A stretch of DNA of 20,381 nucleotides, taken from positions 1 through 20,381 of IMG/VR virus record IMGVR_UViG_3300046011_011965. One strand, given 5' to 3'. Below the pieces are notes generated by a model. That model saw only the letters and a program-made list of their open reading frames with translations. It made no database searches and was not told where the DNA came from. A program made the position numbers and the translations under genes. Positions 4,081-20,085 of this stretch are shown piece after piece. Each line of letters begins with the position of its first letter. Position 1 is the stretch's first letter. This DNA is from a virus.

Positions 4081-4320
4081 ATGGAACATCCGTTAATCAA
4101 CAACATAGATCATCTCACCCTGGACGAGTTGTCCACCAAGGTCACCGAACTGACCAAAAAGATCGGTCAGGCACATCGCATGGGCAACGCACATCTCCGT
4201 GCCCAGGTGGAAATGGCCTTGGCCACGTATCAGAACAAACTCAGGGAAAAACAACAAGCCGCCTATGATGCTGCCAAAAAAACCGGTCCGGATTTTTCGG
4301 ATAAGATTGACGTGTCATGA
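4081..4320 (+). CDS. Conserved small phage protein, helical, 79 aa
   Basis: This is a short, charged and probably all-helical protein. A coiled-coil-like segment covers residues 12-66 (heptad-like LDELSTKVTELTKK, then MALATYQNKLREKQQAA), and the end is acidic (DFSDKIDVS). I recognise the pattern as a conserved hypothetical of T4-like cyanophages but know no function. There are no membrane segments or catalytic motifs. The start lies five bases after the T-run of the terminator, and no Shine-Dalgarno exists outside the hairpin arm. The stop overlaps the next start (ATGA), so the downstream gene is probably translationally coupled. Confidence 0.7.
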   Translation: MEHPLINNIDHLTLDELSTKVTELTKKIGQAHRMGNAHLRAQVEMALATYQNKLREKQQAAYDAAKKTGPDFSDKIDVS

Positions 4321-4919
4321 ACGTTAGATTGCGAACCATCCTTGGTTGGAGTTCGGGCCTGGTACATGGTGACCGGTTCTGTGTAAATCAATATCAGGCA
4401 CAGATAGACATGCTTACTGTGACTGAAGACCATCACGAGCAAAATGTCGCGTATGAACGTGTGAAATACATCACGCATCATGTATTTGAAGATGCCATCA
4501 TGATATCGCGGGACCATGACAAACTCAGTTTATATCAGCAGACCAATGCTCGTGTGATTGTATTGCCCGATGAACCGGTTGACCAGATCATGGGGATAAT
4601 GTTATATTTGAAATTTAATGCTGTGATGGAAAATCGCATGGTGGTCACTGATGTTGAAATATCCAGTGTGCAGGGAGACAATATGGGCTACCTACATAGT
4701 CACGGTGAAAATCTCAGCACAGGGTTGAGCAGGGATGGTTGGTGGGTTGACGCAGGACCCACATGGTATGATATGCCGATAACACACACCAGAGACAAAG
4801 TGGTCAGTCTCAGCTCACGCCCAGAATGGGCGGATCATGGGCTGGCCTGGACTGATGCCACTGACAAAGGATCCAACAGTGTGGTTTTCGCAGATTTTGG
4901 TCGAAATGCTGACAAATAA
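4317..4919 (+). CDS. Conserved phage protein of unknown function, 200 aa
   Basis: This is a soluble protein with no signal peptide or membrane helix. Distinct segments are a His/Glu-rich stretch (TEDHHEQNVAYERVKYITHH, residues 36-55), a central LPDEPVDQIMGIMLYLKFNA region, and a polar C-terminus with LHSHGENLSTGLSRDGWW and WYDMPITHTRD. The His/Asp/Glu content could bind a metal, but no recognised metal motif is present. The ATG overlaps the preceding stop by four bases, and the following gene starts inside its last 14 bases, so it sits in a coupled string. I place it among conserved hypotheticals of T4-like marine phages without a functional claim. Confidence 0.7.
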   Translation: MNVRLRTILGWSSGLVHGDRFCVNQYQAQIDMLTVTEDHHEQNVAYERVKYITHHVFEDAIMISRDHDKLSLYQQTNARVIVLPDEPVDQIMGIMLYLKFNAVMENRMVVTDVEISSVQGDNMGYLHSHGENLSTGLSRDGWWVDAGPTWYDMPITHTRDKVVSLSSRPEWADHGLAWTDATDKGSNSVVFADFGRNADK

Positions 4920-5427
4920 ATTTGGTGAAGTAGTTCTCACAGAGCAGGATCTGTGTGATGCTGTGATGCAGGGACGACCAGTATGGACTTTGCCCAAGAT
5001 CACTGTGGACTCAAATGTAGACATTGAACGCTTGGTGAGCAGGCTGGAAGACCCAGCGGCTGTGCTGACCTGGACTTTTCCCGAGAACAGTGATATCAGT
5101 GTGCCAGAATTTGATCATGTGCGACAGAACCGCTGGTTCATGCCCGATGAATACAAAAACATGGACATAGCCAAACATGTGTTGGAACTGTGTGTCACTG
5201 ATGCCGAACTGCAAAGGGTAGGAGAGGAACTGCTGCTGTACCAAGAGCACGGTCTATTCGATCTCTTGAGGTATATGAAGTATCTCGTGGATGTCATGCA
5301 TGAAAATCGCGTGATCTGGGGAGTGGGTCGAGGATCAAGTGTGGCCAGTTATGTGCTGTATCTCTTGGGCGTGCATCGCATCAACAGCATGTACTATGAT
5401 TTAGACCTCAGAGAATTCCTGCGTTAA
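4906..5427 (+). CDS. DNA polymerase III alpha-like stand-alone fragment (NTPase/palm-entry region)
   Basis: This is a 173-residue protein. Its C-terminal 90 residues follow bacterial DnaE: a helical ELQRVGEELLLYQEHG run, a LVDVMHENRVIWGVGRGSS segment, and SYVLYLLGVHRINSMYYDLD before FLR at the end. In DnaE the equivalent GPGRGSxAGSLVAYxLGIT segment directly precedes the catalytic PDFDxDF aspartates. This protein stops just before them, so it cannot be a polymerase. GRGSS is at residues 141-145. I chose the ATG at 4906 (MLTNKFGEVV) over an upstream in-frame ATG at 4837 because it matches the start I recall for cyanophage relatives and overlaps the previous gene less. T4-like phages replicate with a family-B polymerase, so the role is unknown; nucleotide binding, clamp contact or regulation are guesses. 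Confidence 0.7.
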   Translation: MLTNKFGEVVLTEQDLCDAVMQGRPVWTLPKITVDSNVDIERLVSRLEDPAAVLTWTFPENSDISVPEFDHVRQNRWFMPDEYKNMDIAKHVLELCVTDAELQRVGEELLLYQEHGLFDLLRYMKYLVDVMHENRVIWGVGRGSSVASYVLYLLGVHRINSMYYDLDLREFLR

Positions 5428-5876: not shown

Positions 5877-6242
5877 ATGAAAGCCGCATACGCACCACAT
5901 CGCATCACTCGTTTGCGTGCCTTGAACGATTCAGTGTTGGTCAAGGACATGCAGTTCAAAGATCGGCAGCTCAGTTCAGGCATCATCTTGCCCGCTGACA
6001 ATGGCAAGGCCACGGGCATCCGTGCTCGATGGGGCCAGGTCTATGAAATCGGTCCTGAACAAAAGGACGTTCGCCCCGGACAATGGATCTGTGTGGCACA
6101 TGGTCGCTGGACCCGCGGACTTGACATCGAAGACGACCAAGGTACCAAGACCATACGCAGAATCGATCCCAAAGATATCTTGCTGGTATCAGATGAACAT
6201 CCTGGCACAGATGACACCATAAGCGATGCTGTATCTGGCTAA
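5877..6242 (+). CDS. GroES/gp31-like co-chaperonin
   Basis: This is a 121-residue Hsp10-type protein. In T4 the equivalent gp31 replaces host GroES as the lid of GroEL so that the large capsid protein fits and folds. The core starts at LRALNDSVLVKD (residues 13-24). The mobile loop carries GIIL (35-38), equivalent to the GIVL tripeptide region of GroES that docks on GroEL. It continues with WGQVYEIGPEQKDVRPGQWI (52-71) and closes with IDPKDILLV (96-104), as in GroES-fold barrels. A 12-residue N-terminal extension and an acidic 15-residue tail are extra compared with GroES (97 aa) and resemble the longer gp31 class. The start abuts the previous stop. The stop overlaps the next ATG (TAATG). Confidence 0.85.
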   Translation: MKAAYAPHRITRLRALNDSVLVKDMQFKDRQLSSGIILPADNGKATGIRARWGQVYEIGPEQKDVRPGQWICVAHGRWTRGLDIEDDQGTKTIRRIDPKDILLVSDEHPGTDDTISDAVSG

Positions 6243-6467: not shown

Positions 6468-7394
6468 GTGAAAGACCTCTGGGCAGAAAAATATCGACCA
6501 AGAACCATCGAGGACTATGTGTTCCGCGATGAAGCACAGCGTGAACAGGTCAAGAGCTGGATCGACTCCGGTGCCATCCCCCATCTGCTGTTTTCAGGGG
6601 CACCGGGTGTGGGCAAGACCACACTGGCCCGGATCCTGATACATCAACTGGATATCAATGAATATGATGTGCTGGAGATCAATGCCAGCAGAGAGAATTC
6701 CGTGGATACCATCCGCGACAAGATCACCGGTTTCGTGCAAACCATGCCCTTTGGTAGTTTCAAAGTGGTGTTGCTAGACGAAGCCGATTACATATCACCC
6801 AACGGACAGGCCGCACTGCGTGGAGTGATGGAAACATATCACGCTTCGGCTCGATTTATACTGACCTGCAACTATCCTAACCGTGTTATTCCTGCATTAC
6901 ATTCAAGATGCCAAGGTTTCCATATCGAGCGAGTGGATGTCACAGAATTCACAGCAAGGATGGCCACCATACTCGTGGCAGAAAACGTGGTGTTTGATCT
7001 AGACACTCTTGATACCTATGTCAAGGCCACTTATCCTGATCTCCGCAAATGCCAGAACATGTGCCAGATGAACTCCGGTCAAGGCTCGCTGCGAGCACCC
7101 AGCGGCGATGAAGGTGGCACCCGAGAATGGAAACTGGATGTGGTAAATCTCTTCAAAGCCGGCCGGGTGCTGGAAGCTCGCAAGTTGATGTGTTCATCAG
7201 TGCGTCCCGAGGAAATGGAAGATGTGTTCCGTTGGATGTATGACAATCTTGGTCTGTGGAGTGCTGATCCGGAGAAGCAGGATCAGGCCATAGTAATCAT
7301 ACGCAATGGTATAGCCAATGTTCCCTTGGTCACCGATCAAGAAATCAATCTGTCAGCTACCTTGATAGAATTGTCTGGATTGATTCGTGCCTGA
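6468..7394 (+). CDS. 44: Sliding-clamp loader large subunit (T4 gp44-like AAA+ ATPase)
   Basis: This is a 308-residue AAA+ protein of the replication-factor-C small-subunit type. It uses ATP to open the DNA clamp and load it at primer ends for the replicative polymerase. In order: RFC-like N-terminus LWAEKYRPRTIEDY (4-17), Walker A GAPGVGKT (44-51), Walker B VLLDEAD (101-107), sensor 1 TCN (133-135), and the SRC arginine-finger box (146-148) diagnostic of clamp-loader subunits. Length is close to T4 gp44 (319 aa). The start is GTG at 6468 with an AAGGA Shine-Dalgarno; MKDLWAEKYRP fits the family N-terminus. In T4 the genes for gp62 and gp45 flank it, but neither is recognisable here. Its last eight bases overlap the radical-SAM gene. 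Confidence 0.93.
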   Translation: MKDLWAEKYRPRTIEDYVFRDEAQREQVKSWIDSGAIPHLLFSGAPGVGKTTLARILIHQLDINEYDVLEINASRENSVDTIRDKITGFVQTMPFGSFKVVLLDEADYISPNGQAALRGVMETYHASARFILTCNYPNRVIPALHSRCQGFHIERVDVTEFTARMATILVAENVVFDLDTLDTYVKATYPDLRKCQNMCQMNSGQGSLRAPSGDEGGTREWKLDVVNLFKAGRVLEARKLMCSSVRPEEMEDVFRWMYDNLGLWSADPEKQDQAIVIIRNGIANVPLVTDQEINLSATLIELSGLIRA

Positions 7395-13751: not shown

Positions 13752-14588
13752 ATGACAGCACGACGCATCTTGATCATGGGCCTGCCCGGTGCAGGCAAGA
13801 CCTACATGGCTGAAGCCTTAAAAAAGCACTTGGAAAGCCACAGTGTGTTGTTCCATCCCAGGGCAGAAACAGTACACAGCAGTCAAGCCCGTGTGGAATG
13901 GTTCAATGCCGATGATGTGCGGAAACGATTCAACGACTGGGACTTCAGCCAGGAAGGTCGCATTCGCCAGAGCCACAGGATGCGTGAACTGGCCGATGCC
14001 AGTGCAGCCGACTTTGTCATAGTGGATTTCGTGGCACCCTTGCCGGAAATGCGATACAACTTCAAGGCCGACTGGACCATCTGGATGGATACCATAGATC
14101 AGGGCCGTTATGAAGATACAAACAAGATGTTTACCGCACCTGATGTGTATGACTTCCGCATCACAGAACAGGCTGCTGACAAGTGGGCAGAATTCATCGG
14201 CACACACATCCTGGAGAATCGTCGTAGGCCGGTATTTGATTGGCAGAAGGAAACTGTGCAGATGCTGGGTCGCTGGCAGCCGTGGCATGCAGGTCATCGT
14301 GCCTTGTTCGAGCGTGCCATAGCCAAGACCGGTCAGGTCGCAATCATGATCCGCGACTGCCAGGGCTGGCAAGGTTCCAATCCCTTTGAGATCAGCCAGG
14401 TCAAGGATCGCATACGCCGAGATCTAGATCCTTTGTATCAAGGGCAATATGACATACAGGTAGTGCCCAACATCGTGAATATCACCTATGGTCGTGACGT
14501 GGGATATCGCATCGAACAAGAAGTGTTTGATGATGCCACACATGCTATTTCTGCGACTAAAATCCGCAGGGAAATGGGCCTGGAATAA
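13752..14588 (+). CDS. Adenylylsulfate-kinase-like domain fused to an HxGH nucleotidyltransferase
   Basis: This is a 278-residue two-domain protein. Residues 1-155 form a P-loop kinase with Walker A GLPGAGKT (10-17), FNADDVRKRFNDWDFSQEGR (51-70) and DFVIVDFVAPLPEMR (87-101). These resemble APS kinase (CysC) motifs for nucleotide and acceptor binding. Residues 165-278 are a nucleotidyltransferase with LGRWQPWHAGH (172-182, HxGH at 179-182), NPFEISQVKDRIR and ISATKIR (266-272). GRxQPxHxGH is closest to NMN-adenylyltransferase-type enzymes, while the kinase-first order recalls PAPS synthetase. Roles could be sulfate activation, NAD salvage or activation of a sugar or lipid precursor. I chose the ATG at 13752 because it follows the TctC stop by one base with an AGGAAA site and begins right at the kinase fold. 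Confidence 0.8.
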   Translation: MTARRILIMGLPGAGKTYMAEALKKHLESHSVLFHPRAETVHSSQARVEWFNADDVRKRFNDWDFSQEGRIRQSHRMRELADASAADFVIVDFVAPLPEMRYNFKADWTIWMDTIDQGRYEDTNKMFTAPDVYDFRITEQAADKWAEFIGTHILENRRRPVFDWQKETVQMLGRWQPWHAGHRALFERAIAKTGQVAIMIRDCQGWQGSNPFEISQVKDRIRRDLDPLYQGQYDIQVVPNIVNITYGRDVGYRIEQEVFDDATHAISATKIRREMGLE

Positions 14589-16531: not shown

Positions 16532-16560
16532 TTGACCGGCTGTGACGACCATGTTATAAT
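16532..16560 (+). promoter_or_regulatory. Sigma-70-type promoter before dnaJ
   Basis: TTGACC (16532-16537), a 17-base spacer and TATAAT (16555-16560) preceded by TG (16552-16553, extended -10). The predicted transcription start, seven bases after the -10, is position 16567, the first base of the dnaJ GTG start. It separates the late lysis cassette from a probably early or constitutive chaperone cluster. Confidence 0.75.
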
Positions 16561-16566
16561 TACACA

Positions 16567-17352
16567 GTGAAAGACTATTACAGCATTCTGGGTGTGGCAC
16601 GCACAGCCACTGATAATGAGATCAAGCGGGCATACAGAAAGTTAGCCAGCCAGCATCACCCTGACAAAGGCGGAGACAAAGCCCAATTTCAAGCAGTACA
16701 AGAAGCTTACTCTGTGTTGAGCGATGCACAACGTCGACAAGAGTATGACAATCCTCGCAGCCAAGCACATTTTGCCGCAGGCCCGGGATTTAACTTTGAC
16801 GACATATTTGGCATGTTTGGTGTGAACATGCGTCAGCACCAGGCCCGCAGTCCCCGACTGAACATCTGGATCGGTCTAGAAGATGTGGCACGTGGCGGTG
16901 CCAGGGTCATAGCCCTGCAGATGAACAACACCGTGAGCAACGTGGAAATCAACATACCTGTGGGCATCTCAGACGGCGACACCATACGCTATCCGCAACT
17001 CAGTCCCGACGGTGGCGATCTAGTGATAACATTCCGTGTGAAGCCGGATCCACGATGGCATCGAGATGGCCGAAATCTCACTGTGGATCAAGATGTGGTG
17101 ATCTGGGATCTGATCTTGGGCACTGACATCATCATCAGAGACATCACGGGCACGGAACTGAGACTGACCATCCCTCCACGCACACAGCCCGGAAGCCTGT
17201 TGCGTCTGCGGGGACGCGGATTGCCAGGCAGTGCCATGCCAGGACGGCACGGTGGACCTGCTGGGGATCTCATGGTACGTGTGCAGGCCCGCATACCCAA
17301 TGACATAGATCAAGAATTATTAAACGCCATTCGGCTTAGCAAAAAACAATAA
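16567..17352 (+). CDS. dnaJ: DnaJ/CbpA-type co-chaperone without zinc finger
   Basis: This 261-residue J-domain protein stimulates the ATPase of DnaK and hands it clients. The J domain covers residues 1-62 (KDYYSILGV at the start, catalytic HPD 31-33 in HHPDKGG), and a short Gly/Phe-rich linker ([14 protein letters not shown], 72-85) follows. The Cys-rich zinc-binding region of class A DnaJ is absent. The rest is the beta-rich client-binding C-terminal domain ([18 protein letters not shown], then [20 protein letters not shown]). This is the class B, CbpA-like layout. No DnaK is encoded here, so it should work with the host one. The GTG start at 16567 has no Shine-Dalgarno and coincides with the predicted transcript start. 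Confidence 0.9.
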
Positions 17353-17355
17353 ATA
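17349..17355 (+). promoter_or_regulatory. Late-promoter-like box (ATAAATA) before the deformylase gene
   Basis: ATAAATA ends five bases before the ATG at 17361 and overlaps the dnaJ stop. It repeats the offset seen at 9658. No Shine-Dalgarno is present, so a transcript from here would be leaderless. Confidence 0.4.
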
Positions 17356-17360
17356 TTCCA

Positions 17361-17807
17361 ATGAAACTCACCCGCAGGGTTTTGCACAATCGGGCCCGGC
17401 CCGCGGATTTCCGATCGCCCCACAGCAATCAAAAAATGGCTGATACCATGCTGTGTCTGATGCGTGAAAACAATGCCATTGGTCTGGCAGCCACACAGAT
17501 CGGACACAGCCGCAGGATATTCGTGATGTGTATCAGTGGCCGGATTCGGTTGTGTTTCAATCCAGAGATCACAGAATTCAGCACAGTGTTTGCCGATTAT
17601 GACGAGGGCTGCTTGAGTTTTCCTGGAGATCAGTGTACAATAACAAGACCGGACTGGATTCGAGTAAAATATCAAGATCCTTCTGGTGCAGTCACCGAAG
17701 ATACTTTGGTGGCCCTAGAAGCCAGATGTTTCCAGCACGAACTGGATCATCTGGATGGCATCACCATGTGGGACCGACACAAGGAGCAACATGCAGAACA
17801 ATCCTGA
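17361..17807 (+). CDS. def: Peptide deformylase
   Basis: This 148-residue metalloenzyme removes the formyl group from the N-terminal methionine of new proteins. Motif 1 is AIGLAATQ (39-46; the first Gly of the usual GxGLAAxQ is Ala). Motif 2 is EGCLS (82-86) with metal ligand C84. Motif 3 is HELDH (126-130) with ligands H126/H130 and catalytic E127. Length is slightly short compared with bacterial enzymes (about 165-170 aa), mainly at the C-terminus, as in phage deformylases. All catalytic residues are intact. It lies nine bases after dnaJ and overlaps the ClpA-like gene by 17 bases, making a chaperone/processing cluster. The start has no Shine-Dalgarno. Confidence 0.92.
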   Translation: MKLTRRVLHNRARPADFRSPHSNQKMADTMLCLMRENNAIGLAATQIGHSRRIFVMCISGRIRLCFNPEITEFSTVFADYDEGCLSFPGDQCTITRPDWIRVKYQDPSGAVTEDTLVALEARCFQHELDHLDGITMWDRHKEQHAEQS

Positions 17808-20085
17808 GATAGAACAGATCATAGAAAACGCAGTACACATTGCTCGTGACAGACATCACAAGTATGTGTTGACGGAGCACCTCATGCTCAGCATGTTGAA
17901 GCACGCACCTTTCCGTGCGGTGCTGGAAAAATTTGGCACAGATGTCGCATTTTTAGAAACGGATGTTGCTGCCTATCTAGATGGTCTTACCAACATGACC
18001 ACGGATGTGGCCAATCTCCAGCCACGCAAGACCAATGCTCTGGAACGCACGTTCAATCGAGCACTCACCCAGGTCTTGTTTACTGGTCGCAGGACCATGA
18101 CCACTGCGGATCTGTATCTGGCCATCATGGCCGAGACCAACAGCCATGCACATTATTTTTTCCTCAAGCACGGTGTGACCAAACAGGAATTCGTCAAATT
18201 CTGGGAAGTAAAATACAATCACAAAGATGCCCGCATCACTGATCAGCAGGCCACAGAGATACTGGAAGAGCACTGTGTGAATCTCACTGAAATGGCCCGA
18301 AAAGACAGCCTGGAGCCCGTGATCGGCCGCGACACCGAAGTGGATGAGATGGTGACAGTGCTGGCCCGGCGATTCAAGGCCAATGTGCTCATGGTAGGTG
18401 ATCCCGGTGTGGGCAAAACTGCCATCGTGGAAGGGCTGGCCCAACGCATCGCTACCAATACCGTGCCCGAATTCCTTAAAGATCACGAAGTGTGGAGCCT
18501 GGAGATCGGCAGTCTCCTGGCAGGATCAAAGTACCGTGGCGAGTTCGAAGAAAAACTCAAGGACGTGATCACTGCCTTGGAGACCAAGAAGAATTGTGTG
18601 CTGTTCATCGACGAAGCACACACCATGCGTGGTGCGGGGGCTAGTGGCAACTCCAGCCTGGACTTTGCCAACATGATCAAACCTGCCATCACCAAGGGCA
18701 TGCTCAAGGTAGTGGCCTCTACCACCTGGGAAGAATACTATGAATCATTTGAAAAAGACCGTGCTCTCATGCGGCGTTTCCACAGGCTCAGCATTGACGA
18801 ACCCACTCAGGACACCACGGAACGGATCTTGATAGGTCTCAGCCCTCGCTTGGAGAAGTTCCACAATGTGTTAATCGACACAGCAGCCATGACTGCAGCA
18901 GTGGAACTGTCGGCTCGCTACATACACGACAAAAAGAATCCCGACAAATCAATAGATCTCTTGGATGGTGCCTGTGCTCGGCAGCGTGTGCGAGATGCCG
19001 GCACTGTAGCAATCACACCAGACATGATCATGGCCCAGGTCAGCCGAGTGGCCGGTGTGCCCATGGATCGCTTGCAGAACAACAACAGCAAAAAGATCAT
19101 GGAACTGGAAAGCAACATCAAACAACAACTGCATGGACAGGATGCCGCAGTGGATGCAGTGCTGGAACGTGTGTATGTGAACTTTGCCGGCATCGGCAAT
19201 GGTCGCAAACCCATGGCGTCTTTTCTGTTCTTGGGACCCACTGGCACCGGCAAGACCGAACTGGCACGACTATTGAGCCAGCACCTGGACATGAAATTAT
19301 TGAAGTACGACATGAGCGAATATCAGGAGAAGCACACGGTATCCAGCCTGATAGGTGCACCTCCAGGCTATGTGGGCTTTGAGGATGGCAACGTGGGCGG
19401 CGGCAAGCTCATATCCGATCTCAGCAAGCATCCTTTCTCCATCATCTTGTTTGATGAGATCGAGAAAGCACATCCTGATGTGTCTAACATCCTGCTGCAG
19501 ATGCTGGACGAAGGCCGCGTCACTGGCAGCAATGGCAAGACTGTGGACTGCAAAAACACCATAGTGATCATGACATCTAACCTTGGTGCCCGAGACAATG
19601 AAAACAACAACATCGGTTTTGCACAGGACTTAGAAAAAACCGGTGAAGAAGATCGTGCCATGAAGGATTTCTTCCGCCCGGAACTTCGCAACAGGATCGA
19701 CCAGATCTGCAAGTTCCAGAAATTGGATACCTTGGCCATTAAGAAGATCGTGATCAAATTCTTGGACGAACTCAAAGCCAGCACCGCGGACAAAAACATC
19801 AGGTTAAACTTTGCTGAAACTGCTGTGAGATATCTTGCTGACCAAGGCTATGACTCAAAGATGGGTGCCCGGCCATTGAGCCGCAAGATCGACGAGATCA
19901 TACGTGTGCCATTGAGCAAGAAGATCTTGTTTGATCGCTTGAGAGACTGCGTGATCGACATCACTGTGCGTGACGGCAGGGTAGATTTCGCCATACGCAA
20001 CAACGAAGATGATGCCACAGCCATGACACCCAAGATCGACGAAAAAGGCTACATCATTCTGGATCAATTCAAGCCCCGACAGTGA
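17791..20085 (+). CDS. clpA: ClpA-like double AAA+ unfoldase
   Basis: This 764-residue Hsp100 ATPase is close to E. coli ClpA in length (758). An N-domain-like region (5-140) is followed by AAA1 with Walker A GDPGVGKT (203-210), Walker B VLFIDEA (270-276) and a conserved pair of Arg after ALM (328-329). AAA2 has Walker A GPTGTGKT (482-489), Walker B IILFDEIE (551-558) and sensor-2 GARP (692-695). The long coiled-coil middle domain of ClpB is missing, so this is not a disaggregase of that type. The AAA2 loop carries IGF (608-610), matching the [LIV]G[FL] tripeptide by which ClpA and ClpX dock on ClpP. No ClpP gene is in view, so a host ClpP partner is likely. The ATG at 17791 has an AAGGAG ribosome site; the stop overlaps the next ATG (TGATG). 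Confidence 0.9.
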   Translation: MQNNPEIEQIIENAVHIARDRHHKYVLTEHLMLSMLKHAPFRAVLEKFGTDVAFLETDVAAYLDGLTNMTTDVANLQPRKTNALERTFNRALTQVLFTGRRTMTTADLYLAIMAETNSHAHYFFLKHGVTKQEFVKFWEVKYNHKDARITDQQATEILEEHCVNLTEMARKDSLEPVIGRDTEVDEMVTVLARRFKANVLMVGDPGVGKTAIVEGLAQRIATNTVPEFLKDHEVWSLEIGSLLAGSKYRGEFEEKLKDVITALETKKNCVLFIDEAHTMRGAGASGNSSLDFANMIKPAITKGMLKVVASTTWEEYYESFEKDRALMRRFHRLSIDEPTQDTTERILIGLSPRLEKFHNVLIDTAAMTAAVELSARYIHDKKNPDKSIDLLDGACARQRVRDAGTVAITPDMIMAQVSRVAGVPMDRLQNNNSKKIMELESNIKQQLHGQDAAVDAVLERVYVNFAGIGNGRKPMASFLFLGPTGTGKTELARLLSQHLDMKLLKYDMSEYQEKHTVSSLIGAPPGYVGFEDGNVGGGKLISDLSKHPFSIILFDEIEKAHPDVSNILLQMLDEGRVTGSNGKTVDCKNTIVIMTSNLGARDNENNNIGFAQDLEKTGEEDRAMKDFFRPELRNRIDQICKFQKLDTLAIKKIVIKFLDELKASTADKNIRLNFAETAVRYLADQGYDSKMGARPLSRKIDEIIRVPLSKKILFDRLRDCVIDITVRDGRVDFAIRNNEDDATAMTPKIDEKGYIILDQFKPRQ

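Follow-up and report, generated by a model that had tools for sequence, protein, structure and literature searches.

Linked dnaJ and clpA genes in a phage lineage: a candidate unfoldase operon for a phage-encoded Clp protease

Does a phage that carries genes for a DnaJ co-chaperone and a ClpA unfoldase lend parts to host machines, or does it bring a machine of its own? The question is raised by IMG/VR virus record IMGVR_UViG_3300046011_011965, a linear fragment of 20,381 bases (called the window below, at its full length). Its right end holds, in this order, dnaJ, a peptide deformylase gene (pdf) and clpA. A preliminary description had read these genes as a protein-quality module, every part of which would adapt some machine of the host. 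We favor a different answer, with moderate confidence: dnaJ and clpA, with or without pdf, would form a separately promoted and probably early operon, and ClpA would supply the unfolding component of a ClpA-ClpP-ClpS protease encoded by the phage. The phage thus probably brings its own protein-disposal machine and does not only borrow that of the host.

A conserved dnaJ-clpA pair with an optional deformylase

Strong hidden Markov model (HMM) matches confirmed the identity of all three genes, which are contiguous, as the preliminary description had it (Table 1). The dnaJ product combines a J-domain that carries the HPD motif, a short G/F stretch and a C-terminal substrate-binding domain, without a zinc finger; by these domains it is a class B, or CbpA-like, co-chaperone, scoring below NCBI's DnaJ and CbpA equivalog cut-offs. 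Its best solved relatives were the DnaJ 2 chains 4j80 and 6psi. The same plan holds among relatives, with HPD in 83 of 84 aligned DnaJ rows (the sole miss being the cut-off L032) and the CxxCxGxG motif in none of the 84. The window ClpA has recognizable D1 and D2 domains, both Walker sets, the pore loops KYRG and GYVG, and an N-domain (PF02861, 35.7 bits). It scored 786 bits with phrog_4871 and 796 bits with TIGR02639, its top-scoring model, the latter under the NCBI ClpA equivalog cut-off of 993 bits, and we therefore call it ClpA-type rather than a certified equivalog. Its most likely start is the ATG that follows an AAGGAG, rather than the listed 17755. This ATG overlaps the deformylase stop, which suggests coupled translation.

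An IMG/VR scan with the window ClpA protein gave 374 relatives, of which we kept the best 80, those closest to the window. DnaJ lay immediately upstream of ClpA, on the same strand, in 79 of these 80 loci, and the one locus without it (L041) sits on a contig that begins 98 bases ahead of the ClpA frame. The loci are partly near-copies, so that the 79 pair-bearing loci hold 64 distinct ClpAs and the 82 rows with both genes reduce to 68 tree rows. In 71/71 deformylase-free loci, 9–78 bases separate the two genes when clpA is taken to start at the first ATG of its frame. The pair also occurs in the named phages Atu_ph07, Phosso and PA5oct, whose ClpAs are about 38–40% identical to that of the window. 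As a control we used 80 bacterial Clp ATPase loci from genome_contigs, unsorted among ClpA, ClpB and ClpC, of which 73 had at least 1 kb of upstream sequence; a DnaJ match lay immediately before the Clp gene in two of them. The preliminary description had proposed co-occurrence in other phages as a check, with unlinked genes in relatives as the opposite outcome; within this lineage the linkage of dnaJ and clpA held.

The third gene behaved differently. Deformylase is present in 10 of the 80 IMG/VR loci and, as a single match between dnaJ and clpA, in 11 of 50 whole records, including Phosso. Mapped onto the 68-row ClpA tree, the distribution of deformylase requires at least four changes, two of them forced by starred branches. 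The deformylase gene is a patchy, optional insert, and of the supposed three-gene module only the dnaJ-clpA unit, with its conserved upstream promoter, survived. Nor does the order of action once proposed (N-terminal processing, DnaK delivery, unfolding) match the order of the genes, in which dnaJ comes first. The window deformylase has all three catalytic motifs (Table 1). It exceeded the Pfam cut-off and fell slightly below the NCBI cut-offs (100.7 vs. 103.95 for TIGR00079 and 113.7 vs. 125 for NF001159), and among 13 aligned rows GLAAxQ was seen by eye in 13, EGCLS in 13, and HExDH in 12 by script, Phosso having QHELDHI by eye. The automated pattern for the first motif missed 6 of the 13 rows, including the window, as it required a G two places before the G of GLAA.

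The linkage has a boundary. DnaJ was not found beside clpA in the named phages RaK2, GAP32, slurp01, CBB, XbC2, SCTP-2, SE_PL, Kaldavass and qdvp001, nor in Vibrio phage 2.275.O, and no J-domain match was found anywhere in these ten; in the uncultured phage LR756503 a J-domain is present, but distant from its Clp gene. Linkage is thus the property of a sub-lineage. The nine named phages, LR756503 and Vibrio phage 2.275.O, together with the coming and going of deformylase, would suit an account in which the genes are neighbors only because they share a promoter and are tightly packed, and do not work together biochemically. We regard this account as decidedly improbable. The pair is kept down to about 38–40% ClpA identity, and it is kept through the insertion of small open reading frames (ORFs) between the promoter and dnaJ in L018 and L019.

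Phage ClpP and ClpS as partners of ClpA

If ClpA is half of a protease, its other half must come from the phage or from the host. We searched 50 of 84 records at full length, many of them fragments, for possible partners. ClpP was present in 27 of the 50, with at least two matches in 21 of those 27, and ClpS exceeded the Pfam cut-off in 24. In records of at least 200 kb (12 IMG/VR and four named phages), a size line drawn after the results were known, ClpP and ClpS were each found in 15 of 16, G022 being the exception in both. The closest sizeable relatives that bear deformylase have two ClpPs (L003) or two ClpPs and a ClpS (L005). Fourteen phage-collection records with a ClpA-type gene gave a similar picture, with a ClpP match in 13 (only 30 bits in qdvp001) and ClpS in 12. 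Since both partners are common in large relatives and the window spans 20 kb, the statement that there is 'no ClpP' is best taken as a fragment effect; a ClpP and a ClpS presumed for the window's own phage would lie outside the window.

These searches bear directly on the proposal that DnaJ and ClpA attach to the DnaK and ClpP of the host and so redirect these machines. That proposal fits the window, which shows no partners, and the 47 of 50 records without an HSP70 match; the docking loop of ClpA could also suit a host ClpP, and several records of 100–200 kb have neither ClpP nor ClpS. But the ClpP and ClpS of 15 of the 16 large records speak against it, as does the joint divergence of docking loop and phage ClpP in the RaK2-like group. 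After the whole-record searches for ClpP, ClpS, HSP70 and GroEL we rejected host adaptation as the main account, and consider it quite unlikely. For ClpA, the adapter reading is probably wrong. It may be right for DnaJ: since just 3 of the 50 records have an HSP70, the phage DnaJ probably serves host DnaK. GroEL was found in 8 of 50.

ClpA sequences carry a loop that could hold such a ClpP. At the place of the E. coli ClpA IGL loop, which docks to ClpP, the window has IGF. This tripeptide recurs in 84 of 86 ClpA rows (80 IMG/VR loci, four named phages, the window and the window's own copy, L081), the exceptions being L081, which is truncated ahead of the loop, and Vibrio phage 2.275.O, which has IGV. 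The dock varies with ClpP. DnaJ-linked lineages have IGF and, where ClpP was found, a canonical one of 202–273 bits; SCTP-2 has IGY and a ClpP of 234 bits; Vibrio phage 2.275.O and the RaK2-like phages have IGV, IGM, LGM, MGM or MNM, and their ClpPs score 138–156 bits.

The one ClpP1 scanned, that of L097, passed NF001368 (313 vs. 249 bits) and NF009205 but did not reach the equivalog TIGR00493 (294 vs. 309). A second, divergent ClpP (ClpP2; 6457–7062 in L097, with 14 further rows elsewhere) often lies about 2–4 kb from the canonical one, and that of L097 was under every NCBI cut-off listed. Ser, His and Asp, the positions of the E. coli ClpP triad, are kept in all 42 ClpP-type rows (27 ClpP1 from 23 records and 15 ClpP2), and from these sequences a mixed ClpP1P2 core is possible. 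Likewise, six ClpS sequences that we examined keep the Asn, Asp and His of the N-degron pocket of E. coli ClpS.

A different role for the pair was also considered, in which DnaJ and Hsp70 would extract proteins and ClpA, unfolding them in the manner of ClpB, would feed them back into refolding without any protease. The linkage to DnaJ would suit such a disaggregase, as would a DnaK gene within the ClpX-Hsp20-ClpS locus of two relatives (see below). The middle domain of ClpB and Hsp104 contacts Hsp70, however, and the window ClpA lacks this domain. It aligns with E. coli ClpA in a single unbroken piece from the N-domain to D2, and with ClpB chains in two pieces; it also scores higher with the ClpA profile than with the ClpB profile (657 bits). 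Given these features, the retained IGF dock and the ClpP of the relatives, we think a disaggregase unlikely.

Several observations weigh against a phage-encoded protease, or against the unit as we have drawn it. Among the window proteins scanned there was no DnaK, GroEL, ClpP or ClpS, no protein-by-protein search having been aimed at DnaK, GroEL or ClpP. The window ClpA stays under its equivalog cut-off. Below the post hoc 200-kb line, ClpP drops to 11 of 19 IMG/VR records of 100–200 kb and 1 of 15 under 100 kb, and neither ClpP nor ClpS was found in G008 (160 kb, with deformylase), G022 (200 kb), G026 (192 kb) or G031 (177 kb), all of which may be fragments. HSP70 is rare. Aat was found in none of the 50 whole records, and tmRNA above the gathering score in none, 29 records having matches at E ≤ 0.001 that, where short and sub-threshold, were taken to be tRNAs; any N-degrons or tags must therefore be supplied by the host or arise through cleavage. 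Among the 14 phage-collection records LR756503 alone gave no ClpP match; it has no recognizable dock, and its Clp protein is not necessarily a ClpA. Phage qdvp001 joins a good VGF loop to its 30-bit ClpP match and has no ClpS. No promoter is evident before dnaJ in Phosso (6/12 positions), Atu_ph07 (8/12) or PA5oct (9/12), and the dnaJ promoter is accordingly a feature of the IMG/VR lineage. The RaK2-like phages have ClpA, ClpP and ClpS without DnaJ, which is thus not required for such a protease. Distances between DnaJs and between ClpAs do correlate (r = 0.86, n = 67, with 0 of 999 permutations as high), but PhoH also diverges in parallel with ClpA (r = 0.82, n = 27), and the congruence therefore reflects shared descent and not interaction. 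Finally, PHROG labels both kinds of ClpP 'head maturation protease'. A separate prohead protease (PF03420) scored above its threshold in 16 of 26 records. Twelve of these 16 are named phages with a ClpP as well, in which the head protease is not necessarily ClpP. Among the 12 IMG/VR records tested, 8 gave no PF03420 match, and in these ClpP may have a head role.

On the protease model, ClpA hexamers would take up substrates through the N-domain, with phage ClpS bringing those that bear N-degrons, unfold them with the conserved pore loops, and pass them through the IGF dock into the chamber of phage ClpP. The linked class B DnaJ would bind unfolded or aggregating proteins and hand them to Hsp70, that of the host or, in a few relatives, the phage's own; alternatively, it might keep proteins soluble for ClpA. 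Refolding and degradation would then be made together. Deformylase, a lineage-specific extra, would remove formyl groups from phage proteins as they are made in a burst, and would possibly fix which N-termini are exposed.

Compared with E. coli ClpAPS, the phage proteins share the domain plan, the pore loops and the position of the docking loop, and presumably the ClpS pocket. In contrast, the phage parts are spread over several loci, usually with two ClpP types, and clpA is paired with dnaJ, not with clpS, whereas the E. coli gene order is clpS-clpA. Sinorhizobium phage Phosso has the window's own order, dnaJ-pdf-clpA, along with ClpP (two matches) and ClpS, but its ClpA is 39.5% identical to that of the window, and no notable sigma70-type match precedes its dnaJ. 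In Pseudomonas phage PA5oct, dnaJ and clpA are adjacent, and ClpP, ClpS, ClpX, S21, a heat-shock protein and FtsH are annotated; unlike the window, it gave no deformylase match, and its record notes mark ClpP and FtsH 'ESI-MS/MS'. The RaK2-like jumbo phages (RaK2, GAP32, CBB, slurp01, XbC2, SE_PL and Kaldavass) have their own ClpA, ClpP and ClpS, but the neighbors of their clpA are structural or hypothetical genes; they gave no DnaJ match, and their docking loop has drifted.

Most of these parts have been described before. In the sections of the Atu_ph07 paper that we drew on, ClpX, ClpA, ClpB, ClpP, ClpS and DnaJ are listed, ClpA is said to be conserved in most RaK2-like phages, and the Clp proteins are suggested to act in proteolysis, in replication, in building the virion and in clearing aggregates, among other roles (Attai et al., 2018; PMC6102473). 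That phage resembles the model closely, with ClpX, ClpA (gp292), an adjoining DnaJ (gp293), ClpP (gp676) and ClpS (gp708) in one jumbo genome. It differs in having no deformylase match, no clear sigma70-type site before dnaJ and one ClpP match at our threshold, to which the authors add the Clp-protease-like gp128; in those sections dnaJ-clpA is not presented as a conserved unit. For jumbo phages, a second paper reports ClpP in some and states that several others instead encode ClpS for host ClpAP, reading phage DnaJ as a recruiter of host HSP70 (Iyer et al., 2021; PMC7824862). The co-occurrence of ClpP and ClpS in our records argues against a general 'instead'. Phage Clp proteins have thus been seen, in these two papers, as possible helpers in assembling virions, in replication or in clearing aggregates, or as agents acting by way of the host's ClpAP and HSP70. 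In the open-licence literature covered, we found no account of a dnaJ-(pdf)-clpA operon, of the promoter ahead of it, or of the slot for DnaK or GroEL described below; the parts are known, and the arrangement appears little described. Should whole ClpAPS sets prove to move as a group, along with a DnaJ that is linked and separately promoted, proteolysis itself would be under phage control, and it would become testable which proteins large phages destroy, when they do so, and whether host clpP is dispensable.

A promoter and a hairpin upstream of dnaJ

The sigma70-type site just ahead of the window dnaJ matches the consensus well (Table 1); two further promoter-like sites of similar strength occur in the window, both within genes. 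The nearest family-matched genes upstream are of lysis type (an M15 peptidase and an Rz-like spanin). In relatives, at least 10 of 12 promoter positions were matched in 37 of 54 distinct dnaJ-upstream stretches, compared with 34 of 2000 random 80-mers from the same loci. This count covered 70 of 84 DnaJ rows, and some dnaJ starts were misplaced by the start pattern. When the 14 rows outside it were rescored, L032 was cut off, and of the other 13, six reached at least 10/12 and seven, including Atu_ph07 and PA5oct, fell below. The GTG start of dnaJ lies 6 bases past the -10 box in the window, and GTG follows at 5–7 bases in 10/10 rows of the deformylase lineage (nine loci and the window). With GTG so near the -10 box, the transcript probably begins at the start codon or within a base or two of it. 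On the operon model, dnaJ and clpA would be transcribed together.

Lineages without deformylase have a further feature. There the -10 box often lies in the left arm of a terminator-like hairpin that is followed by a T-run. Hairpin-embedded TATAAT was found at 26 of 45 distinct sites near dnaJ, compared with 6 of 909 elsewhere in the same loci, 16 of 20,000 with random flanks, and 0/10 in the deformylase lineage. Such boxes (in L057, L012, L009 and others) are almost confined to the dnaJ-clpA operon. In the 353-kb record G009, 2 of 276 TATAAT sites are embedded in this way, one of which heads the dnaJ operon, with two small ORFs between. The hairpins comprise 22 different arm pairs that are divergent in sequence yet complementary. 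Arm complementarity was part of site selection, so that only the excess near dnaJ counts as evidence. Complementary arms that persist through sequence change, together with the T-run, favor an RNA hairpin, that is a terminator, over an operator acting at the DNA level on the palindrome. The simplest reading is that read-through from upstream would stop at the hairpin and the operon would restart from its own host-type promoter. A promoter inside a terminator would be a compact insulation device.

An element shared with clpP2 was considered and set aside. Among the 15 clpP2 rows, only G004 has a hairpin TATAAT just ahead of the gene (with no -35 box, 1/6 positions matching); G009 has one about 2 kb ahead, and none was seen in the other 13 rows. 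With so few such sites, we claim no regulon common to clpP2 and dnaJ. Upstream of clpP2 in L110, L111 and L112, TATAAATA stands directly before small hairpins; this sequence resembles T4 late promoters and contrasts with the sigma70-type promoter of dnaJ-clpA.

A second chaperone locus and other genes of the window

In several relatives ClpS lies in a second locus, together with ClpX and chaperone genes. By Pfam, the order in G024 is clpX, S21, HSP70, Hsp20 and clpS (L244). Script patterns and inspection by eye gave clpX, HSP70, an Hsp20-like frame and ClpS in G016 (L245), clpX, GroEL, Hsp20 and clpS in G010 (L246), and clpX, Hsp20 and clpS, with neither DnaK nor GroEL, in G003 (L247). The annotation of PA5oct (L116) lists clpX, S21, two hypothetical genes, a heat-shock protein and ClpS. 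Thus, the five records examined share the plan clpX-S21-slot-Hsp20-clpS, in which the slot holds DnaK, GroEL or nothing, S21 being confirmed by Pfam in G024 alone and annotated in PA5oct. By coordinates, GroEL adjoins ClpS also in G011 and G013 and lies elsewhere in G004, G006, G007 and Vibrio phage 2.275.O.

More tentatively, these loci could form one self-contained network, partly under host-type promoters, made up of the hairpin-insulated dnaJ-clpA operon, a ClpP core of two types and the clpX-to-clpS locus. Such a network would carry out N-degron-capable proteolysis independently of host Clp and would have an interchangeable folding machine.

The preliminary description had also counted a distant GroES-like gene as part of the set. 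The gene is present, as a weak match of the gp31 type (17 bits against an NCBI GroES cut-off of 109; Table 1), and we judge it to lie outside the dnaJ-clpA operon.

Table 1. Positions of the features discussed in the window (base 1 is the first base of the record).
Feature	Position	Strand	Basis or remark
GroES/gp31-like co-chaperonin gene	5877..6242	+	PF00166 22.2 bits vs. cut-off 21.1; PHROG 'head morphogenesis' 5.5e-11
Sigma70-type promoter, TTGACC-17-TATAAT, extended -10 (TG)	16532..16560	+	11/12 positions match; by sequence only
dnaJ	16567..17352	+	PF00226 83 bits, PF01556 92 bits; GTG start
Peptide deformylase gene, 148 aa	17361..17807	+	PF01327 127.7 bits vs. cut-off 22.8; GLAATQ, EGCLS, QHELDH
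Shine-Dalgarno-like AAGGAG for clpA	17781..17786	+	sequence; inside the end of the deformylase gene
clpA, ClpA-type unfoldase, 764 aa	17791..20085	+	N-domain, two AAA+ rings, no middle domain, both pore loops; most likely start
IGF tripeptide aligned with the E. coli ClpA IGL loop	19612..19620	+	alignment with 1ksf

Other genes of the window touch the unit less closely. The frame at 13704–14588 encodes a protein with kinase-like and nucleotidyltransferase-like (NMNAT-like) parts, with weak matches to KTI12, APS_kinase and CTP_transf_like. We rejected it as a member of the unit, since its divergence does not follow that of ClpA (r = −0.015, n = 30), as if the gene were exchanged between phages. 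The protein encoded at 12776–13750 looks secreted and had no PHROG match; by eye it resembles tripartite tricarboxylate (Bug/TctC) binding proteins. A radical-SAM-like protein is encoded at 7387–8514, with 17.1 bits against a Pfam cut-off of 29.5. Two overlapping frames at 4317–5427, the second of which looks on inspection like part of a DNA polymerase III alpha-type protein, are possibly one gene split in two.

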